Shown here one piece after another: positions 6,866-14,854 of a stretch of 64,000 bases of DNA. The position numbers and the translations under genes were made by a program. The stretch is from Sandaracinus amylolyticus (GTDB taxonomy: Bacteria; Myxococcota_A; Polyangia; Polyangiales; Sandaracinaceae), in the NCBI RefSeq assembly GCF_000737325.1, contig NZ_CP011125.1:496001-560000 (forward strand), given 5' to 3'. The notes under the pieces were generated by a model, which was given only the letters and a program-made list of their open reading frames with translations, searched no databases and was not told the DNA's origin. Every line of letters begins with the position of its first letter. Positions within the stretch are counted from its first letter, which is position 1.

Positions 6866-8668
6866 CTATCCGCCCCGGGCTCGGAGCACGCGCTCGAGAT
6901 CCGAGCGCGCGGGTCCCGTCTCCGCCGCGTGCGCCTTGCGCAGGAGCGCGCCGACGTCGGGATGATCGGCGCGCACCAGGAGATCGCGCGCGATGTCCTT
7001 CTCGTGGCGCTCTCCGTGGCGCACGACGTCGATGAGGAGCTCCGCGGCCTCGATGCTCGGGATCTTGCCGATCGACGCCAGCGCAGCGCGCCGCGTCTCG
7101 ACGTCCTGCGCGTCGCGGTAGATGCGCGAGAGCGGATCGAACGCGTGCCCGAAGTGCAGGCTCTGCACCGCGGCGAGCGCCTCGCGGCGCACGCTCGCGT
7201 CCTCGTCGGCGAGGCCCTTGATGATCGACACGAACGAGCGCTTGAAGAAGAGCTGACGCACCGCGCGCATCACCGCGGCGCGCACCCGCGCGTCCTCGTG
7301 CACCAGCATCTTCTCGAGCGGCGCGAGCGCGGCGTAGATCTCGACGCGCCCGAGGTGGCTCGCGAGCACCGAGAGCGTCTGCGGGCGCAGCGCGGCGGCG
7401 CCGGAGTCGGGCGAGCCGAGCTGCGCGAGACGACACAAGAGCGCGCGCCGCCGCGTGAAGTCGGGCCACTTGTCGTCCTGCACCACCTCCGCCATCGTCT
7501 CGGCGGGATCTCCGGCCTGCTCCCACTCGATCACGTCGAGCCGCCAGATCTCGGGGTACGCGGTGTCCATCCGCAGGTAGTCGGGGAACGACGGCATCGG
7601 CGTCTCGTCGTCCGCCATGCCCTTGAGGCGCTGCGCGAGGCGCGCGTAGCGCGCGCGGCGCTTGTCGGAGAGCGGGAGCGCCGCGAGCTTCGAGTAGATC
7701 TCGCGCACGCGCGAGTAGAGGCCGAGCTCGTTGTACGCGTCGATCGCGGCGGCGTAGCTGTTCTCGGCGAGCTCCGCGGAGGCGCCGCTCTCGATCGCGC
7801 GCTCCGCCGCCATCATGTGGGTCTCGCCGCCCTTGGCGCGATAGAAGCGCGCGTAGGGCATGCTCTGTCGGCGCGCGAACTCCGCCGCCTCGCGATAGAG
7901 CGTCGCCGCCGCGTGGAGCTCGCGGCGCTGGAGCGCGAGCTGCTGGAAGTCCTCGTAGTACTGCAGGACGTAGTACTTGAGGCCGTCCTCGCGCAGGATG
8001 CGCACGCAGTTGAGGTAGCCCTCGGCGAGGTTCTCGAAGCTGCCCTCGCGCCCGATCGTGAGCAGCACGCCGTAGCAGTCGAACGCGCGCTCGCGCAGGC
8101 CCTGGCGCTCGAAGCCGTCGGCCGCGGCGGTGAGCAGGTGCATCGCGGCGACTTGCTGGCGACGCGCGGGATCGTGGTCGCCGAGGCGCGCGCAAGCACG
8201 CCCGAGGTTGAAGCGGACGAGGCCCTGCGTGTACGGGTCGTCGCGCAGGCGCGTGTCGTCGGCCAGGCGCTCCCAGAGGACGCGCGCGCCGCGATCGTTC
8301 TTCGCGAGCTCGAGCTGGATCGCGGCGTGACCGAGCCAGCCCGCGGACTCGAACCAGCGCGCGGCCTGCGCGTGGTCGCGCGCGGTGACGGCGCAGCGCG
8401 CGAGGTCGAGCGGGACGCTCTGTGCGAGCGCGGTCGCGCGCGCGAGGTCGCCGAGGAAGAGCCAGGCCGCGCCCGCCGCGCGCTTGCGGCCGAGCTGCTC
8501 GTAGCAGCTCGCCATCGTGCGCAGGTAGGTGCGGAACTCGTCGTCGATCACGTGCGAGCGATCGACGAGGAGCCAGAGCTTGCCGAGCGCGTCCTCCCAG
8601 CGACCGGCGCGCACGAGCTCGTTCGCGTCGCGCTCGACCTGGCGCTTGTCGATGCCGCCGACGCCCAT
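6866..8668 (-). CDS. TPR/HEAT-repeat protein of the MoxR-vWA operon, 600 aa
   Basis: A fully helical, soluble protein with no signal peptide. Residues 1-370 look like TPR-type hairpins (RTYLRTMASCYEQLGRKRAA, HAQAARWFESAGWLGHAAIQ, LHAAATLYREAAEFARRQ). Residues about 430-590 are HEAT-type repeats (DARVRAAVMRAVRQLF, DASVRREALAAVQSL, DVETRRAALASIGKI). A distinctive linker (PSFPDYLRMDTAYPEIW) lies between. It is the last gene of the operon, 3 bp after the vWA gene. In known MoxR-vWA modules, helical-repeat proteins serve as adaptors or substrates, so a scaffold or recognition role is inferred. I do not recognise the exact family. Confidence 0.72.
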   Translation of the reverse strand: MGVGGIDKRQVERDANELVRAGRWEDALGKLWLLVDRSHVIDDEFRTYLRTMASCYEQLGRKRAAGAAWLFLGDLARATALAQSVPLDLARCAVTARDHAQAARWFESAGWLGHAAIQLELAKNDRGARVLWERLADDTRLRDDPYTQGLVRFNLGRACARLGDHDPARRQQVAAMHLLTAAADGFERQGLRERAFDCYGVLLTIGREGSFENLAEGYLNCVRILREDGLKYYVLQYYEDFQQLALQRRELHAAATLYREAAEFARRQSMPYARFYRAKGGETHMMAAERAIESGASAELAENSYAAAIDAYNELGLYSRVREIYSKLAALPLSDKRRARYARLAQRLKGMADDETPMPSFPDYLRMDTAYPEIWRLDVIEWEQAGDPAETMAEVVQDDKWPDFTRRRALLCRLAQLGSPDSGAAALRPQTLSVLASHLGRVEIYAALAPLEKMLVHEDARVRAAVMRAVRQLFFKRSFVSIIKGLADEDASVRREALAAVQSLHFGHAFDPLSRIYRDAQDVETRRAALASIGKIPSIEAAELLIDVVRHGERHEKDIARDLLVRADHPDVGALLRKAHAAETGPARSDLERVLRARGG

Positions 8669-8671
8669 CGA

Positions 8672-10243
8672 TCAGGCGCCTCCCCCGCGCAGGTACGCGT
8701 CGAGCTCGGCCTCCGCCTTCGCGAGATCGTCCTTCGCCTGCTTGGCCCCCGACTCGGAAGGCGCGGAGGGCATCAGCGACTTGCGGCCTGGCGGCATGCT
8801 GGTGCGCGCCTCGCCCGCGGCGTCGTCGATGATCGCGAGCGCGCGATCGGCGCGCGCCTCGCGCTGGGTGAGCGCGGCCTCGTCGACGACCTGCACGGTG
8901 TGCAGGCGCGGTAGGTACTCGAGGTCGAGCTTGCCGGTCGAGGGGAGCATGAAGATGCCGTAGAGCATCGCGACGTCGCGCAGCCGCTCGATCGTCTCGA
9001 TCGGGACGTGACACTCGGCGTGCGTGAGGAGGTAGAGGATCGGCGTCTTCTTCTCGCGCTTGGCGACGCGCGCGAGATCGTTCGCGAGCAGCGCGAAGAC
9101 CTTCGCGTAGTTGCGGCCGTGCTCGCCCTTGAAGCTGAGGACGTAGGGCACGTCGACGCCCGCTTCGTTGCGCCTCTTCGCACGAGCGTGCTGTACCTCG
9201 TAGAGGCGCGAGTCGAAGAAGCGGAAGTAGACGTCCTCGCCGCGCAGGAGGAGCTTCTTCACGAGCGTGAGCGCGAGCCCGCGCGCGAACACGGCGCGCT
9301 GGCCGCGCATCGACGCGGTGGCGTCGCACACGATGTAGTGGAGGCGGCGCTCCTCTTCGCGCTGCTTCTCGCGCGCGTAGTAGAAGACCTCGTTCTCGAC
9401 GAAGCGCTGATCGAAGAGGTCCTCGTCGAACGCGAGCTCGCCGAGCATCAGCGAGTCGATGGTGCCGCGGCGCTCGAGGCCGGCGTAGCCGTCGACCGAG
9501 AACGTCTGCACGCCGGTCGCGCGTCGCGTCTCGAGCACGCTCGGGAGGAGATCGAGCGAGAAGTTCACGACGTCGTTCGCCTCGGGGCTGCCGAGCACGT
9601 CGAGGAGATCGAGCATGCCGAACGCGCTCGCGGCGCTCGCCTCGGCGCCCATCATCCCGAGCAGGCGCAGCGTGTCGAGGTCGATCTGCTCGAACGAGGT
9701 CACGAGGCGCAGCCGCTCGCGCGCGAGGTGCGAGAGGAACTGCACGTCGGGGTTGCGATCGGCGTTGGAGAAGAGGCCGTTCAGGCGCGGTCCGAGGTTC
9801 GTGTAGACCTCGGGATCGAGCGGGAGCGGCACGCCGATGGGGCGACGGCCGGGGCCGAGGTGTCGCTCGTAGATCGGGCCGAGCACGCGCAGGAGGATGA
9901 CGGAGACGAGGTCGTCGCCGAGGCGCCAGGCGCGCGAGCGCTCGGCGACCTCGGTGTTGCCGAGCTCCTCGAGGGTCTCGATCCACGCCTCGTGGGCCTG
10001 GCGCACCGAGGGCGGGACCTGGATCGCGGTGAGCCCGGCGCGCGCGCCGATCGCGTCGGGCGCGCCGATGAGGAGCGTGCCGAGGTCGTGCACGACCCAG
10101 AACGGAACGGGCAAGCCCACCTTCGCGAGCGCGTTCCGCCAGTGGGCGGCGCGAAGGATCTGCATCGGATTCTCCACCTGTGCTGCGGACAGGAGGAGAC
10201 CGCCGATCTCGCGCGACTGCTCACTGGAAAGCGGAATGGTCAC
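8672..10243 (-). CDS. von Willebrand factor A domain protein, MoxR partner, 523 aa
   Basis: Residues 1-290 are a helical N-terminal domain. A vWA domain follows (about 302-450): 'LHYIVCDATASMRGQRAVFA' carries the metal-ion-dependent adhesion site, here D307-x-T-x-S instead of DxSxS. The usual 'TDG' strand reads LLTHAEC, so the third metal ligand is replaced by His. The protein is cytosolic, as in RavA-ViaA and MoxR-vWA pairs, where vWA proteins bridge the AAA+ ATPase to targets. The start is GTG. It lies between the MoxR gene (126-bp gap holding a repeat hairpin) and the TPR/HEAT gene (3-bp gap). The C-terminal tail is a charged helix. Confidence 0.82.
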   Translation of the reverse strand: MTIPLSSEQSREIGGLLLSAAQVENPMQILRAAHWRNALAKVGLPVPFWVVHDLGTLLIGAPDAIGARAGLTAIQVPPSVRQAHEAWIETLEELGNTEVAERSRAWRLGDDLVSVILLRVLGPIYERHLGPGRRPIGVPLPLDPEVYTNLGPRLNGLFSNADRNPDVQFLSHLARERLRLVTSFEQIDLDTLRLLGMMGAEASAASAFGMLDLLDVLGSPEANDVVNFSLDLLPSVLETRRATGVQTFSVDGYAGLERRGTIDSLMLGELAFDEDLFDQRFVENEVFYYAREKQREEERRLHYIVCDATASMRGQRAVFARGLALTLVKKLLLRGEDVYFRFFDSRLYEVQHARAKRRNEAGVDVPYVLSFKGEHGRNYAKVFALLANDLARVAKREKKTPILYLLTHAECHVPIETIERLRDVAMLYGIFMLPSTGKLDLEYLPRLHTVQVVDEAALTQREARADRALAIIDDAAGEARTSMPPGRKSLMPSAPSESGAKQAKDDLAKAEAELDAYLRGGGA

Positions 10244-10263
10244 TGGATCACGAACCGCTGACT

Positions 10264-10370
10264 CGGAGGAGAGAATTCACCGCAGAGGGCCGCGGAGGGC
10301 CACAGAGATCGGAGGAGAGATGTTTCTCCTCTGCGGCCCTCTGTGGCCCTCTGTGGTTGATTCCTCTCTT
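10264..10370. repeat. long imperfect inverted repeat of the CAGAGG/CACAGAG dispersed type
   Basis: Arms at about 10264-10307 and 10325-10370 are complementary. Over a 28-nt core, 24 positions match, and the differences are all purine/purine or G-U compatible. Each arm has internal direct repeats of 'cagagggcc' and 'cacagag'. The closing hairpin is aggaga/tctcct. Short-period CAGAGG/CACAGAG repeats occur dispersed in several bacterial phyla. Here the element sits in the gap between the MoxR and vWA genes, so in the mRNA it would be a long stable stem that could protect or separate the two halves of the operon. Confidence 0.75.
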
Positions 10371-11548
10371 CACTGGCTGAACTTGCCGGACTGATAGACG
10401 TGCCCGAGGAGCTGATCGACTCGGGCGAGGGCGTCCTGCGAGGGCTTGGTGCCGATCGCCTGGAGCGCGGCTTTGATCTCCTGGAGCGCCTTGAGCTGCG
10501 AGAAGAGCTGGATGTCGCTCAGCGGGCGATCGCCGGTGAGCAGGTCGCGGATCCGATTGATCTCCGCGATCAGCGCGTCGACGCCGACGTCGGTCGCGCT
10601 CACGCGGCGCGCCTCGGGGTGCTCGCGGTACCACTGCTCGAGCACCGGGCCGACGATGCCGTCGAGGATCTCGCTCTGATCGAGGTTGTTCCAGATGTGC
10701 TTGAGCAAGAAGAAGTCGCTCGGGTCCGGCGTCGCGCGACCATCGAGCAGCGAGCTCGCGCAGAAGAGCTTGAGCATCTTCACCGCGCGGCGATCGCTCA
10801 CGCTCACGCCCTCGGCGCGGATCTGGAAGATCAGGCCCTTGTACTGCGCGAGGAACTGCTCGGGGATGCGCCGCATGCGATCGCCGAACGAGAGATGCAG
10901 CGTGCGCAGATCGTTCGCCGAGAGCTGCGGCTGCAGCCGGTCGTACTCGCCGGTGATCTTCGCGGCTTCGTGGGCGAGGCCGCGCACCAGCAGATCCTGG
11001 AAGTGATAGCTGTCGAGGTTGTCGCTCTTCAGGCGGATGAGGAATCGATCGAACACCGCCATCAGGTCGTCGTCGTTCGGCACCTCGTTGCTCGCGCCGA
11101 ACGCGCTCACGAGCGGCACCTTCACGACGCTCCCGCCGACCGTGTAGACGCGCTCGTTGAGCACGCTGAGCAGCGAGTTGAGGATCGCGCTGTTCGCCTT
11201 GAAGACCTCGTCGAGGAAGACGATCTCGCCGGTCGGCAGCATGCCCTCCATGCGCCGCTGGTAGCTGCCCGAGCGGAACGCCTGGATGTCGATCGGGCCG
11301 AAGATCTCGTTGGGCTCGGTGAAGCGCGTGAGCAGGTACTCGAAGTACCGCGCGTCGACGAGCTTCGCGAACATCCGCACGATCGCGCTCTTCGCGGTGC
11401 CCGGCGGGCCGACGAGCAGCATGTGCTCGCCCGCGACCGCGGCGACGAGCATCAGGCGCACCGTCTCGCTCTTGCCGAGGAACGTGGACTCGAGCGCGCG
11501 CGCGACGTTCGAGAGCCGCTGGACGACCTGGTTCTGGGGAAGGCTCAC
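10370..11548 (-). CDS. MoxR/RavA-type AAA+ ATPase, 392 aa
   Basis: A textbook MoxR-branch AAA+ protein. The Walker A motif is GPPGTAKS (residues 47-54), Walker B is IVFLDEVFK (109-117), the sensor-1 region is SNEVP (153-157), and the arginine-finger region is 'VFDRFLIRL' (165-173). 'FTEPNEIFGPIDIQAFRSG' resembles RavA more than short MoxR chaperones. Such ATPases act as chaperones that load cofactors or remodel complexes with a vWA partner, which is the next gene. The C-terminal 100 residues are a helical lid and extension. It lies 4 bp after the 392-aa upstream gene, indicating one transcript. The start MSLPQNQVV is well supported. Confidence 0.92.
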   Translation of the reverse strand: MSLPQNQVVQRLSNVARALESTFLGKSETVRLMLVAAVAGEHMLLVGPPGTAKSAIVRMFAKLVDARYFEYLLTRFTEPNEIFGPIDIQAFRSGSYQRRMEGMLPTGEIVFLDEVFKANSAILNSLLSVLNERVYTVGGSVVKVPLVSAFGASNEVPNDDDLMAVFDRFLIRLKSDNLDSYHFQDLLVRGLAHEAAKITGEYDRLQPQLSANDLRTLHLSFGDRMRRIPEQFLAQYKGLIFQIRAEGVSVSDRRAVKMLKLFCASSLLDGRATPDPSDFFLLKHIWNNLDQSEILDGIVGPVLEQWYREHPEARRVSATDVGVDALIAEINRIRDLLTGDRPLSDIQLFSQLKALQEIKAALQAIGTKPSQDALARVDQLLGHVYQSGKFSQ

Positions 11549-11552
11549 GGGC

Positions 11553-12731
11553 TCACCTCGATCCGGACGCCACGCGCGCGGCGCGCGCGGCGGCCATCGT
11601 TCCGCTCTGGGGGGCGTGGAGGATGGTGCGCGCGCGCGTCACGAGCGCGGCGACCTCGTCGATCTGGGCGCGCGGGATCGCGCGCCGGAGCTGCTCGGCG
11701 CGGCGCTGGAGCACGGCGCGATCACCGTCGTCGAGCGCGCGGATCTCGTCGATCGCGAGCGAGTCCTCGAGCCACGCGGGCAGCACCGCGGCGTAGCGCA
11801 GCGCGTGGGGATCGAGCGCGCTCGGGATGCGCGTCTCGACGCGCGCGTCGAGCGTCGAGGTCACGTGGATCTCGAAGAGCAGCTGGAGCGCCGGCGCGAG
11901 CAAGGACGGCGTCGCGGAGAGCATCTCGGGCGCGAAGAGCGCGGCGCCGAGCGCGCTCGCGCTCTGCCACTCGCCGCTCGCCGCGATCTGTCGCGCGATG
12001 CCGCCGCGCAGCGCGGGATCGGCGAGCACGCGAAGACCCGCGATGCCGAAGCGCAGTGGCGCGAACCGCGCCGGCATCGCGAGCTCGGTCACCGGTGAGC
12101 GCGCGACCGCGTCGCGGAGGCGCGGCGAGAGCCCGAGCCCCGCGAGCTCGTCGAGCTTCGCGAAGAGCGGGAGCACGTCGATGACGTTGTGCTCCTCGCG
12201 CACGAAGCGGAGGCGCGGCAGCGCGGTGACGTTCCCCGGCACCGGGCGCCCGAAGAAGCGATAGGTGTACGCCCAGTTGCGAACGACGGTGTCGCGGCGC
12301 TGGGTCGCGAAGAACGCGGTGAGCATCGCGTGTCGCGAGAGCGCCTCGCCGCGGGTGTCGGGCGGCTGGATGAGATCGAGCAGGCGATCGATCCAGTCGA
12401 GCACGACCTCGCGCGCGCCACGCGCGAAGAGGCGATCGAGCGACGGATCGGTGAGGAAGAGGAGATCGTGCAGCACCATCGCGAGCCCGACGAGATCACG
12501 CGAGGGCCAGGGGACCGTCTCGAGCGGCGCGATCTCGGAGCCGAGGCGATGGAGCTGATCGAAGATGCGCGACTCGGCCTCGGCGGAGGTCGAGCGCGTC
12601 TGCGCGAAGTAGTCGAGCGCGCCGGGCGCGACCGGCCGACCGAGCTCCGCCACGTCGCCGCTCATCAGCGGCGCGAGGAACTTCACGACGAGCGCGTCGT
12701 ACGCGGCCTGGAGCTTGGCGACGTCCGTCAC
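11553..12731 (-). CDS. unrecognised helical protein of the MoxR-vWA operon, 392 aa
   Basis: The GTG start at 12731 overlaps the upstream stop by 4 bp (GTGA), so translation is coupled. The protein is soluble and mostly alpha-helical. It includes 'AYDALVVKFLAPLMSGDV', a conserved-looking core 'LVGLAMVLHDLLFLTDPSL', 'DWIDRLLDLIQPPDTRG' and 'NWAYTYRFFGRPVPGNV'. No motif of a known enzyme is seen, and there are no Cys/His metal sites or membrane segments. Its fixed position between the 507-aa protein and the MoxR ATPase suggests it is a core part of this system, perhaps a client or adaptor. That is inference only. Confidence 0.72.
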   Translation of the reverse strand: MTDVAKLQAAYDALVVKFLAPLMSGDVAELGRPVAPGALDYFAQTRSTSAEAESRIFDQLHRLGSEIAPLETVPWPSRDLVGLAMVLHDLLFLTDPSLDRLFARGAREVVLDWIDRLLDLIQPPDTRGEALSRHAMLTAFFATQRRDTVVRNWAYTYRFFGRPVPGNVTALPRLRFVREEHNVIDVLPLFAKLDELAGLGLSPRLRDAVARSPVTELAMPARFAPLRFGIAGLRVLADPALRGGIARQIAASGEWQSASALGAALFAPEMLSATPSLLAPALQLLFEIHVTSTLDARVETRIPSALDPHALRYAAVLPAWLEDSLAIDEIRALDDGDRAVLQRRAEQLRRAIPRAQIDEVAALVTRARTILHAPQSGTMAAARAARVASGSR

Positions 12732-14251
12732 TCGCTCTTCTTCTCTCCGGCCTCGGTCTCGGCGCGGCCCGGGGCGCCCCACAGCGGGAACCGCGTCTCG
12801 GGGCCGTACTGCAGCATCGGGAGCGGCGGATCGACGCGATCGGGCGCCTCGGCGTGCACGACCTGGCCCGAGAGCTCGCGCAGCACGCGGCGCGAGACCG
12901 GTCCGAACGCCTCGTTCGCGATCACGTGCGGCGCCGGCGAGTCGGGCTCGAAGAAGACGTGGCCCGCGCCGCGATCGCGCACCAGCTCCTCGAGCACCGA
13001 CGCGGCGATCGCGGGGACCAGCGTCATGCCCGCGGGCACGTAGATGCGGGTCGCGACCTCGCCGTAGAAGCGGCCGAGCGGGACGCCCTCGATGCCCGCG
13101 GGATCGAGCAGGTAGTACGCGCGCTCGGTGACCGCGATGCGCAGCGACTCGAGCGTGCGCTGCGGCAGCACGTAGAGCAGCTTCGCGAGCCACTCGCGCT
13201 GCGACGCGGGCACCACGGTCGCGACGACGTTGCGCCACGGCGCGTTCGTCGGCGCGAGCCGCAGATCGAGCGCCATCGGGCGCATGCCCTGATCGATCGC
13301 GGCGCCGCTCGCGACGTTCTGCGCGCTCTCCATCGTCAGCGTGGAGCGCACGAGCGAGCGCACCGGCACGAAGGGCGGCGTGGGATCGACGACCGTGACC
13401 TTCCCGTCGCCGCGGAAGAGCGTGAGCCCCGCGTTCGCGAAGAGGCTCTGGCAGCTCTCGAGCGCGATCGGGTGCTTGAAGCCGAGCTCCACGCCGAACG
13501 TCGCGCCGAGCGGCTCGAACACGTGCACGCCGGGCAGCGTGCGCAAGAGCGCGATCACGCGCGCCGGCGTCTCTTCGAGCTCGAGCACGTGCATGCGGAC
13601 CGGCGCGTCGTCGAACGCGCTCTGGCTCGGCCACTCCGCGAGCGCGACGCGAGCCCGCACGCGCCACCGGAACAGGTACCCGATGAGCGCGTGCCCGACG
13701 CCGACCTCCGCGGTGCACCACAGTCGCGCGAGCGACGTCTTCTCGCCGGGCGGCGCGCGATGGGGCTCGAGCTTCAGCACGAGCTCGCGGAACGGGATCT
13801 CGCGCTCGAACGTGTAGACCTGACGGAAGGTGTCGGAGTAGACGATCGCGTCCGCGGGCTGATCGAAGAGCTCCGCGACGTCGTAGCCGAGCGGCGACGC
13901 GGCGTCGCGGTACTTCACGAAGTGGCGCGACGTGCCGGTGAACACCATGCCGCCCGCGAGACGCGCGATCGCGGCGACGCGATCCATCCGATACGACGAC
14001 TCCGCGGCGAGCATCACGAGCAGCTCGCGCGTGCGGAGCGGTGTGATCACGCGGCGGATCGAGAGCGACGGAAGGATCTCGTCGATCGAGCCGTCGTCGC
14101 CGTACGCGCGGAAGAACGCGACGACACGATCGAGCGACGGGAAGAGGAGCGCGCCCTTCTGACCCAGCACGACGCCGCGCGTGTCGGGCGCGACGCCGGG
14201 GGTGCGGAAGCGTGTCTGGTGGAGCGCGGCGCGCTCGAGGTAGGCAGACAT
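12728..14251 (-). CDS. unrecognised first protein of the MoxR-vWA operon, 507 aa
   Basis: The ATG at 14251 (MSAYLERAALHQ) starts the operon. The first 60 residues include 'DTRGVVLGQKGALLFPSLDRV'. The middle is alpha/beta (HVLELEETPARVIALLRTLP, FRWRVRARVALAEW). Near the C-terminus are 'GEVATRIYVPAGMTLVPAIA' and 'HVFFEPDSPAPHVIANEAFG'. There is no signal peptide or membrane segment, and I recognise no family. Published MoxR-vWA ternary systems use several otherwise uncharacterised partner domains, and this could be one of them. A profile search would be needed to decide. It is transcribed divergently from the TerB-like gene across a 129-bp promoter region. Confidence 0.72.
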   Translation of the reverse strand: MSAYLERAALHQTRFRTPGVAPDTRGVVLGQKGALLFPSLDRVVAFFRAYGDDGSIDEILPSLSIRRVITPLRTRELLVMLAAESSYRMDRVAAIARLAGGMVFTGTSRHFVKYRDAASPLGYDVAELFDQPADAIVYSDTFRQVYTFEREIPFRELVLKLEPHRAPPGEKTSLARLWCTAEVGVGHALIGYLFRWRVRARVALAEWPSQSAFDDAPVRMHVLELEETPARVIALLRTLPGVHVFEPLGATFGVELGFKHPIALESCQSLFANAGLTLFRGDGKVTVVDPTPPFVPVRSLVRSTLTMESAQNVASGAAIDQGMRPMALDLRLAPTNAPWRNVVATVVPASQREWLAKLLYVLPQRTLESLRIAVTERAYYLLDPAGIEGVPLGRFYGEVATRIYVPAGMTLVPAIAASVLEELVRDRGAGHVFFEPDSPAPHVIANEAFGPVSRRVLRELSGQVVHAEAPDRVDPPLPMLQYGPETRFPLWGAPGRAETEAGEKKSE

Positions 14252-14380: not shown

Positions 14381-14854
14381 ATGGGCGCGATCGACGCGAT
14401 CGGGATCGAAGCACGTCGAGTGCTTCTCGAGGTGATGATGTCGGTGGCGTGGGCCGATCGGGAGCTCGCGCCGGAGGAGCGCCAAGCGGCGCAGGCCGCG
14501 GCGATGTCGATGGGGCTCGTGCTGCCCGGCGACGGGGATCTCACGTCGCCCGATCGCCGGCCGGTGCCGCCCGAGGAGCTGGCGGTGGGGCCGCTGCGCG
14601 AGCGCGATCGCGAGCTCGTGTACCTGTGCGCGGCGTGGATGGCGATGGCCGACGCGGTCGAGGATCCCGAGGAGACGGAGCTGCTCTCGCGGCTCCGCGC
14701 GCGCCTCGAGGTGACCGCGGATCGTGCGACGTGGCTGATGGCGCGCGCGTCGGAGCTGCGACACGCGCAGGTCGCGTCGAAGGCGACGTGGTGGCGCAGC
14801 TTCGACAAGCTCGTCGTCGACGCGGCACGCGCGCTCGAGACGAAGCGTGCGTGA
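14381..14854 (+). CDS. TerB-like helical protein, 157 aa
   Basis: The protein has the layout of TerB/DjlA-N-type domains: a first helix pair 'EVMMSVAWADRELAPEERQAA' with the acidic D..L.P.E pattern, and a second 'LVYLCAAWMAMADAVEDPEE' repeating it. Known TerB domains bind metal through these acidic helices and occur in tellurite-resistance and stress systems. Here the role is unknown. It begins a three-gene plus-strand unit and overlaps the next gene by 8 bp. It is divergent from the MoxR operon, so the two may share a control region. Confidence 0.72.
   Translation: MGAIDAIGIEARRVLLEVMMSVAWADRELAPEERQAAQAAAMSMGLVLPGDGDLTSPDRRPVPPEELAVGPLRERDRELVYLCAAWMAMADAVEDPEETELLSRLRARLEVTADRATWLMARASELRHAQVASKATWWRSFDKLVVDAARALETKRA

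Follow-up and report, generated by a model that had tools for sequence, protein, structure and literature searches.

Organization of the five-gene operon

We analysed a stretch of 64,000 nucleotides from Sandaracinus amylolyticus (NZ_CP011125.1, positions 496,001-560,000), hereafter called the window; coordinates of its features are window positions. The minus strand carries five open reading frames (ORFs) in the transcription order g1, g2, MoxR ATPase (g3), vWA-domain protein (g4) and TPR/HEAT protein (g5), running from position 14251 to position 6866. The five genes and their neighbouring features are listed in Table 1. Trained on the window, a gene finder based on codon usage selected exactly the same five ORFs, and the five-gene MoxR-vWA operon of the initial annotation, with its small gaps and overlaps, was found as described.

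Relatives of g1 were collected from about 85,000 species genomes with a g1 alignment of closer relatives, and 80 loci were kept of 109 relatives. Wherever their group was named, these relatives were all Myxococcota or Deltaproteobacteria (Sandaracinaceae, Polyangiaceae, Sorangium, Polyangium, Minicystis, Nannocystis, Kofleriaceae). In at least 17 other Myxococcota loci among the 80 the five-gene set was complete, with order and strand unchanged, a conservation that the initial annotation had suggested looking for. As 17 loci found independently of each other preserve these proteins in this way, the five-gene arrangement is not a product of chance.

Table 1. Features of the operon and its surroundings in the window.
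Feature	Position	Strand	Remarks
g1, alpha+beta protein, 507 aa	12728-14251	-	C-terminal two thirds homologous to fvmX7 and matching bpX2
g2, mostly helical protein with small beta insertion, 392 aa	11553-12731	-	4-bp overlap with g1
g3, MoxR-clade AAA+ ATPase, 392 aa	10370-11548	-	bpMoxR PF20030; 4-bp gap after g2
Spacer with palindromic dispersed repeat, 126 bp	10244-10369	.	Between MoxR and vWA genes
g4, vWA-domain protein, 523 aa	8672-10243	-	Remote ivWA PF19997 homologue; 126-bp gap after MoxR
g5, TPR-like N-terminal part and C-terminal HEAT repeats, 600 aa	6866-8668	-	3-bp gap after vWA
TerB-like protein	14381-14854	+	Divergent from g1
Lipoprotein-like protein, 1201 aa	16978-20583	-	PQQ beta-propeller, VIT and vWA domains

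Distribution and inheritance

We surveyed 189 Myxococcota genomes for g1, the vWA protein and the TPR/HEAT protein, with E<1e-90 as threshold for a strong vWA match and E<1e-60 for a strong TPR/HEAT match. In total, 28 of the 189 genomes contained g1; 26 of these belong to the same class, from which 39 genomes were sampled, and two to other classes, represented by 150 genomes. The carriers of a strong vWA protein and of a strong TPR/HEAT protein formed the identical set of 28 genomes (Fisher p ~5e-34, a value that ignores phylogeny). Likewise, MoxR orthologues (E<1e-130) were found in 14 of 14 carriers tested and in 0 of 14 non-carriers, and partial gene sets were not seen among the genomes surveyed.

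This co-occurrence extends to genomes in which the genes are no longer neighbours. In Polyangiaceae only g1 and g2 are still paired, and in ten Polyangiaceae genomes the genes are spread over three or four contigs. On the complete chromosome of So ce26, g1-g2 lie near 4.5 Mb, MoxR at 6.28 Mb, vWA at 10.10 Mb and TPR/HEAT at 10.12 Mb; on that of Minicystis rosea, g1-g2 lie at 4.0 Mb, MoxR at 2.18 Mb, and vWA and TPR/HEAT both at 14.79 Mb. Furthermore, an RpoB tree of 27 genomes, which left out G150, implied at least five changes between presence and absence on well-supported branches, several of them nested among Polyangiaceae carriers. Since the genes are retained or lost all-or-none even where they are unlinked, we conclude that they depend on each other functionally; this pattern is the main proof of that dependence. 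The proposal of the initial annotation that the flanking proteins are dedicated components thus agrees with their identical profiles across the 189 genomes and with their joint retention without linkage.

In the gene trees of g1 and of the vWA protein, each of the host families f2, f5 and f9 formed a clade (support 100/100), and f1 grouped with f3 at 90/94 in the g1 tree and 98/96 in the vWA tree. Every carrier contained a single g1 match. Because the gene trees follow the host families and each carrier has one g1 copy, the system looks as if it has been inherited vertically for a very long time in Polyangia, a myxobacterial class of social soil bacteria.

The MoxR ATPase

The best Pfam match of g3 was bpMoxR (PF20030; E=1.4e-74), and among the 14 matches to this model in the 10.33-Mb single-contig genome g3 scored by far the highest (251 bits, against 70 bits for the next). 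Its AAA+ motifs are intact: GPPGTAKS at residues 47-54, IVFLDE at 109-114, ASNE at 152-155, DRF at 167-169 and SDRR at 251-254, with Walker A and B, sensor 1, arginine finger and sensor 2 all present. Judged by these motifs, g3 is predicted to be an active-type ATPase of the MoxR clade. The GPPGTAKS-type P-loop is a variant noted for the FtsH and beta-propeller systems by Kaur et al. 2020 (PMC7159879).

The initial annotation had called the ATPase RavA-like. This likeness is real, as g3 is 37% identical to E. coli RavA over 321 residues of the AAA core and RavA is its closest solved structure, but the best Pfam match lies with bpMoxR. The similarity to RavA stops near residue 305, the two proteins differ in length (392 vs 498 residues), and the NCBIfam RavA model gave g3 201 bits against a cut-off of 681. 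In a MoxR tree the operon-type MoxR proteins formed one clade (support 98/99), which excluded FtsH-class MoxR, RavA and the five other MoxR proteins of the same genome that could be placed; some branches of this tree were long, including that of RavA. A lone MoxR gene adjoins a dUTPase gene in two Polyangiaceae genomes (G103, G116; loci L222, L224).

The vWA and TPR/HEAT proteins

The vWA protein consists of an N-terminal region of ~240 amino acids, a divergent vWA domain and a short tail. Within its metal ion-dependent adhesion site (MIDAS), D307-x-T-x-S311 is invariant across the family, as is T407-H408. The invariance of T407-H408 at the place expected for the third MIDAS aspartate suggests that this residue has been replaced by His408. 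The ivWA profile matched 20 of the 26 family members (best 8e-7), and hhalign aligned g4 with the vWA proteins of the FtsH class at 98.5%, compared with a weak 71% for ViaA; the ivWA-helical_N profile matched one of the 26 members, weakly (0.02). By these profile comparisons, g4 is a distant homologue of ivWA (PF19997). A profile search found no beta-propeller in the g4 family. Genetically, g4 is coupled to MoxR, being adjacent or co-retained in every carrier tested.

HEAT_2 was matched in all 22 of the 22 g5 members. We also considered g1 and g5 as the two halves of a split X7-TPR fusion of the FtsH class. The N-terminal half of the fusion fits g1, but the alignment of g5 with the C-terminal half reached 0.4%, and the idea was rejected. 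Thus the TPR/HEAT protein is not the equivalent of the TPR part found in the X7 protein of the FtsH class.

The two upstream proteins

The initial annotation listed g1 and g2 as two unrecognised proteins. This description still applies to g2, whereas g1 turned out to have remote relatives. The fvmX7 profile (PF20005) matched 11 of the 25 g1 members, the g1 of the window not being one of them, and bpX2 matched 20 of the 25, though weakly (best 1.1e-6; 18.9 bits for the g1 of the window, below the cut-off of 23.6). Comparison of g1 with the X7 part of FtsH-class proteins gave 98.7% in hhalign over 274 columns. On this profile evidence, g1 is a remote fvmX7 homologue. The most conserved motif of g1, TGTSRHFVxYRDxxxPxGYD, lies in the N-terminal part, outside the region aligned with X7. 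The predicted model of g1 (predicted local distance difference test (pLDDT) 82, predicted template modelling score (pTM) 0.58) contains several ferredoxin-like (beta-alpha-beta) units, and a fold search against the PDB gave no hit at E<=0.001, only single ferredoxin-like domains at Z ~8.

For g2, searches of Pfam, NCBIfam and the PDB returned no sequence relatives. Its confident model (pLDDT 94.5, pTM 0.90) consists mainly of helices, apart from a small beta insertion at about residues 144-185; the fold search against the PDB again gave no hit at E<=0.001 (best Z 5.4). Structure prediction, which the initial annotation had recommended for the unrecognised proteins, yielded a confident, mostly helical model without clear PDB match for g2 and ferredoxin-like units for g1. 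With a median identity of 36%, against 72% for MoxR, g2 is the fastest-evolving component, and its gene usually lies directly downstream of g1. The possibility that g2 corresponds to part of the X7 or vWA proteins was rejected, as the comparisons revealed no such similarity, and two candidates for g2 chosen by position (L046, L061) were dropped because one is a GGDEF protein and the other a flavin oxidoreductase. In neither g1 nor g2 did we recognise a catalytic signature or a cofactor motif.

The spacer and neighbouring genes

The spacer between MoxR and vWA is a palindromic dispersed repeat (ACCACAGAGGGCCACAGAGG ...), which forms a long hairpin (fold z -4.8) composed of CACAGAGGGCCACAGAG units. 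The 19-mer ACCACAGAGGGCCACAGAG from this spacer occurs in 22 genome copies at <=2 mismatches, compared with 0 for the reversed control. Since the gap is a repeat insertion, it does not mark the end of the operon, and we rejected its interpretation as an operon break or a hidden regulatory element. In most relatives the MoxR-vWA spacing is 4-60 bp.

In Nannocystis/Kofleriaceae-type lineages a receiver-domain-like protein of 119-147 amino acids is encoded between MoxR and vWA (L150:5183-5545, L170:15098-15457, L056:10126-10569), possibly as a lineage-specific sixth component. The variable genes found at this place in four other loci (L116, L118, L121, L124) were considered as effectors and rejected; they encode PilT-like proteins, putative secreted proteins and a Zn ribbon. 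Judged by their size, their order and their N-terminal sequences, these inserts seem unrelated and therefore resemble rearrangements that arose by chance.

The TerB-like gene divergent from g1 (PF05099, E=7e-5, just under the cut-off) adjoins the operon in four Sandaracinaceae-type loci (L037, L111, L114, L115; 64-66% identity), and not beyond these. The gene of the lipoprotein-like protein was considered as a missing propeller component. It was rejected, as it lies 2.7 kb off, behind genes on the opposite strand, and its position beside the operon is not conserved.

A putative ATP-driven remodelling system

We propose that the products of the five genes probably work together as one dedicated protein-remodelling system driven by ATP. 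It would be a divergent sibling of the MoxR-vWA ternary systems of the FtsH and beta-propeller classes, and now part of the vertically inherited Polyangia core. By analogy with NorQ-NorD, where a finger of the vWA protein reaches into the MoxR ring and the adaptor is twisted and stretched as ATP is turned over (PMC13036017), MoxR would form a hexamer and the vWA protein would act as its adaptor, engaging the ring with a finger in the pore as NorD does with NorQ; ATP turnover would then rotate or stretch this adaptor. The TPR/HEAT protein may serve as a solenoid scaffold associated with the vWA protein, and g1-g2 would be the third component, which is either itself held and remodelled or brings a client. 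The genes that stay linked after dispersal suggest two subcomplexes, g1-g2 and vWA-TPR/HEAT, with MoxR as a separate motor.

Several points weigh against this proposal. The co-occurrence of the genes is evidence of functional dependence, not of physical contact. Two genomes that were examined, G007 and G122, gave no g2 match next to g1, and the all-or-none status of g2 is therefore less certain than that of the other four components. Neither the N-terminal domain of g1 nor any part of g2 has a functional analogue. Moreover, we infer the absence of a dedicated effector from non-recognition only.

The five genes could alternatively form a conflict system for anti-phage defence or programmed death, with g1 and g2 as sensor and unrecognised effector and the ATPase setting the threshold. 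Such a role would agree with the homology of MoxR, vWA and g1 to parts of two ternary systems, FtsH and beta-propeller, that are predicted to act in conflicts (PMC7159879), with the fast evolution of g2 and with the largely multicellular lineages of the hosts. However, an effector domain was recognised in no member, and PADLOC gave no match for the operon or the ten neighbours tested. The single g1 copy per genome, the family-congruent trees and the near-restriction to one class speak against mobile defence, and the genes are often dispersed, unlike those of defence operons. Given the lack of a recognised effector, the lack of a PADLOC match and the vertical inheritance, the conflict role is the weaker explanation and appears unlikely, and the 'conflict-type' character mentioned in the initial annotation found no support.

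We consider it rather improbable that g1-g2 are the client, a Polyangia enzyme or structural complex matured by MoxR, vWA and TPR/HEAT, instead of subunits of the machine. A MoxR-vWA pair often serves the maturation of a single client complex, nitric oxide reductase in the case of NorQD and CO dehydrogenase in that of CoxDE (PMC13036017, PMC9976466), and the dispersed genomes, where g1 stays with g2 and vWA stays near TPR/HEAT, are consistent with such a division. In contrast, the lack of a recognised catalytic signature or cofactor motif in both proteins argues against it, and g1 is more likely a part of the machine because a related component is common to other MoxR-vWA ternary systems.

A RavA-ViaA homologue with unrelated neighbours, for which the conserved AAA core of g3 might speak, is extremely improbable, because the MoxR family forms a clade apart from RavA, the match ends well short of the RavA C-terminus, the vWA protein resembles ivWA far more than ViaA, and the perfect co-occurrence of the neighbours largely refutes it already; the flanking genes did not prove unrelated to the ATPase in other genomes.

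Returning to the remodelling system, the all-or-none retention, the vertical inheritance and the lack of linkage in Sorangium make these five single-copy genes look like a core cellular machine. Tentatively, and with less confidence than in the remodelling role itself, we suggest that a conflict-system architecture was domesticated for a housekeeping or developmental task, giving a core machine that is specific to Polyangia and powered by MoxR; two of its parts, the N-terminal domain of g1 and the whole of g2, would be of unknown fold family. The five-gene system would show how a MoxR-vWA-X7 assembly acts without an effector, and would thereby help to tell remodelling and killing apart as steps in its relatives. 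As evidence for a multi-part system, the phyletic profile of genes that are unlinked yet co-retained is also unusually clear.

Comparison with known MoxR-vWA systems

Four classes of MoxR-vWA ternary systems (VMAP, iSTAND, FtsH and beta-propeller) have been defined and predicted to be conflict systems (PMC7159879); an experimental test of these systems was not found in the literature searched. By the definitions of that study, the five-gene set fits none of the four classes, in line with the undescribed subtype that the initial annotation had thought possible. The known ternary-system Pfam profiles, whose use it had also proposed, match g3 (bpMoxR) and, remotely or weakly, members of the g4 (ivWA) and g1 (fvmX7, bpX2) families, but not g2.

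The similarity to the VMAP and iSTAND systems (subsystems 1 and 2) is limited to a MoxR-vWA couple with a further component. None of the five proteins matched the VMAP family (VMAP-C / VMAP-M), and no NTPase domain that could represent an inactive STAND NTPase was matched among them outside MoxR. The YehL-YehM-YehP-YehQ operon of E. coli likewise combines MoxR and vWA genes with others, but its MoxR protein is 28% identical over just 117 residues, and g1, g2 and g5 are dissimilar to YehM and YehQ. RavA-ViaA of E. coli shares the AAA core and a vWA partner. However, its operon is without homologues of g1, g2 and TPR/HEAT, its MoxR belongs to another clade, and the C-terminal extension of RavA is unmatched. 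NorQ-NorD resembles the five-gene system in the proposed working mode, an AAA ring acting on a vWA adaptor, but is a pair that serves a known membrane enzyme as metal insertion chaperone, and counterparts of g1, g2 and TPR/HEAT are not described for it (PMC13036017).

The beta-propeller system (subsystem 4; bpMoxR, bpX2) is closer. It shares the bpMoxR-type ATPase, its bpX2 profile weakly matches most g1 members, it has no conventional effector, and its accessory proteins are of unknown fold. In contrast, g4 is without the beta-propeller that is strict for this class (PMC7159879), and the operon has no propeller-bearing third component.

The FtsH system (subsystem 3 of Kaur et al. 2020, PMC7159879; fvmX7, ivWA, ivWA-helical_N) has a bpMoxR-type MoxR with the same GxxxTAKS P-loop, a vWA protein to which g4 is remotely homologous through ivWA, and an X7 protein of 1040-1140 amino acids whose N-terminal part is homologous to g1; it is present in Myxococcota too. 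Its third component carries two FtsH-type AAA domains (PMC7159879). In the five-gene operon, by contrast, an FtsH-like AAA gene is missing, no FtsH-type AAA domain being found in g1, g2, g4, g5 or the adjacent genes tested, and the X7-like part stands alone, with an extra conserved N-terminal domain. Furthermore, TPR/HEAT is a separate protein that is not homologous to the C-terminal part of X7, no counterpart of g2 was seen in the FtsH system, the operon is without Ubl, caspase, radical-SAM and fvmX3 genes, and its inheritance appears vertical.

In the FtsH-class loci of the same phylum, the gene of the long X7 protein in several cases adjoins those of a MoxR of 330-355 amino acids, 35-38% identical to g3, and of an ivWA vWA protein, and some loci add an FtsH M41 protease or an fvmX3 analogue. 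Four such loci (L212, L217, L218, L220; X7 with MoxR, most with the ivWA vWA protein) have distinct MoxR sequences in shared genomes. Both kinds of system occur, at separate loci, for example in G188, G169, G160, G140, G067, G122 and G184. Because FtsH-class loci sit separately in some of the same genomes, the five-gene system is a distinct branch. If it is indeed a domesticated machine, it would add a fifth class to the MoxR-vWA ternary systems, and this non-conflict relative might be an ancestor or a descendant of the FtsH and beta-propeller classes.

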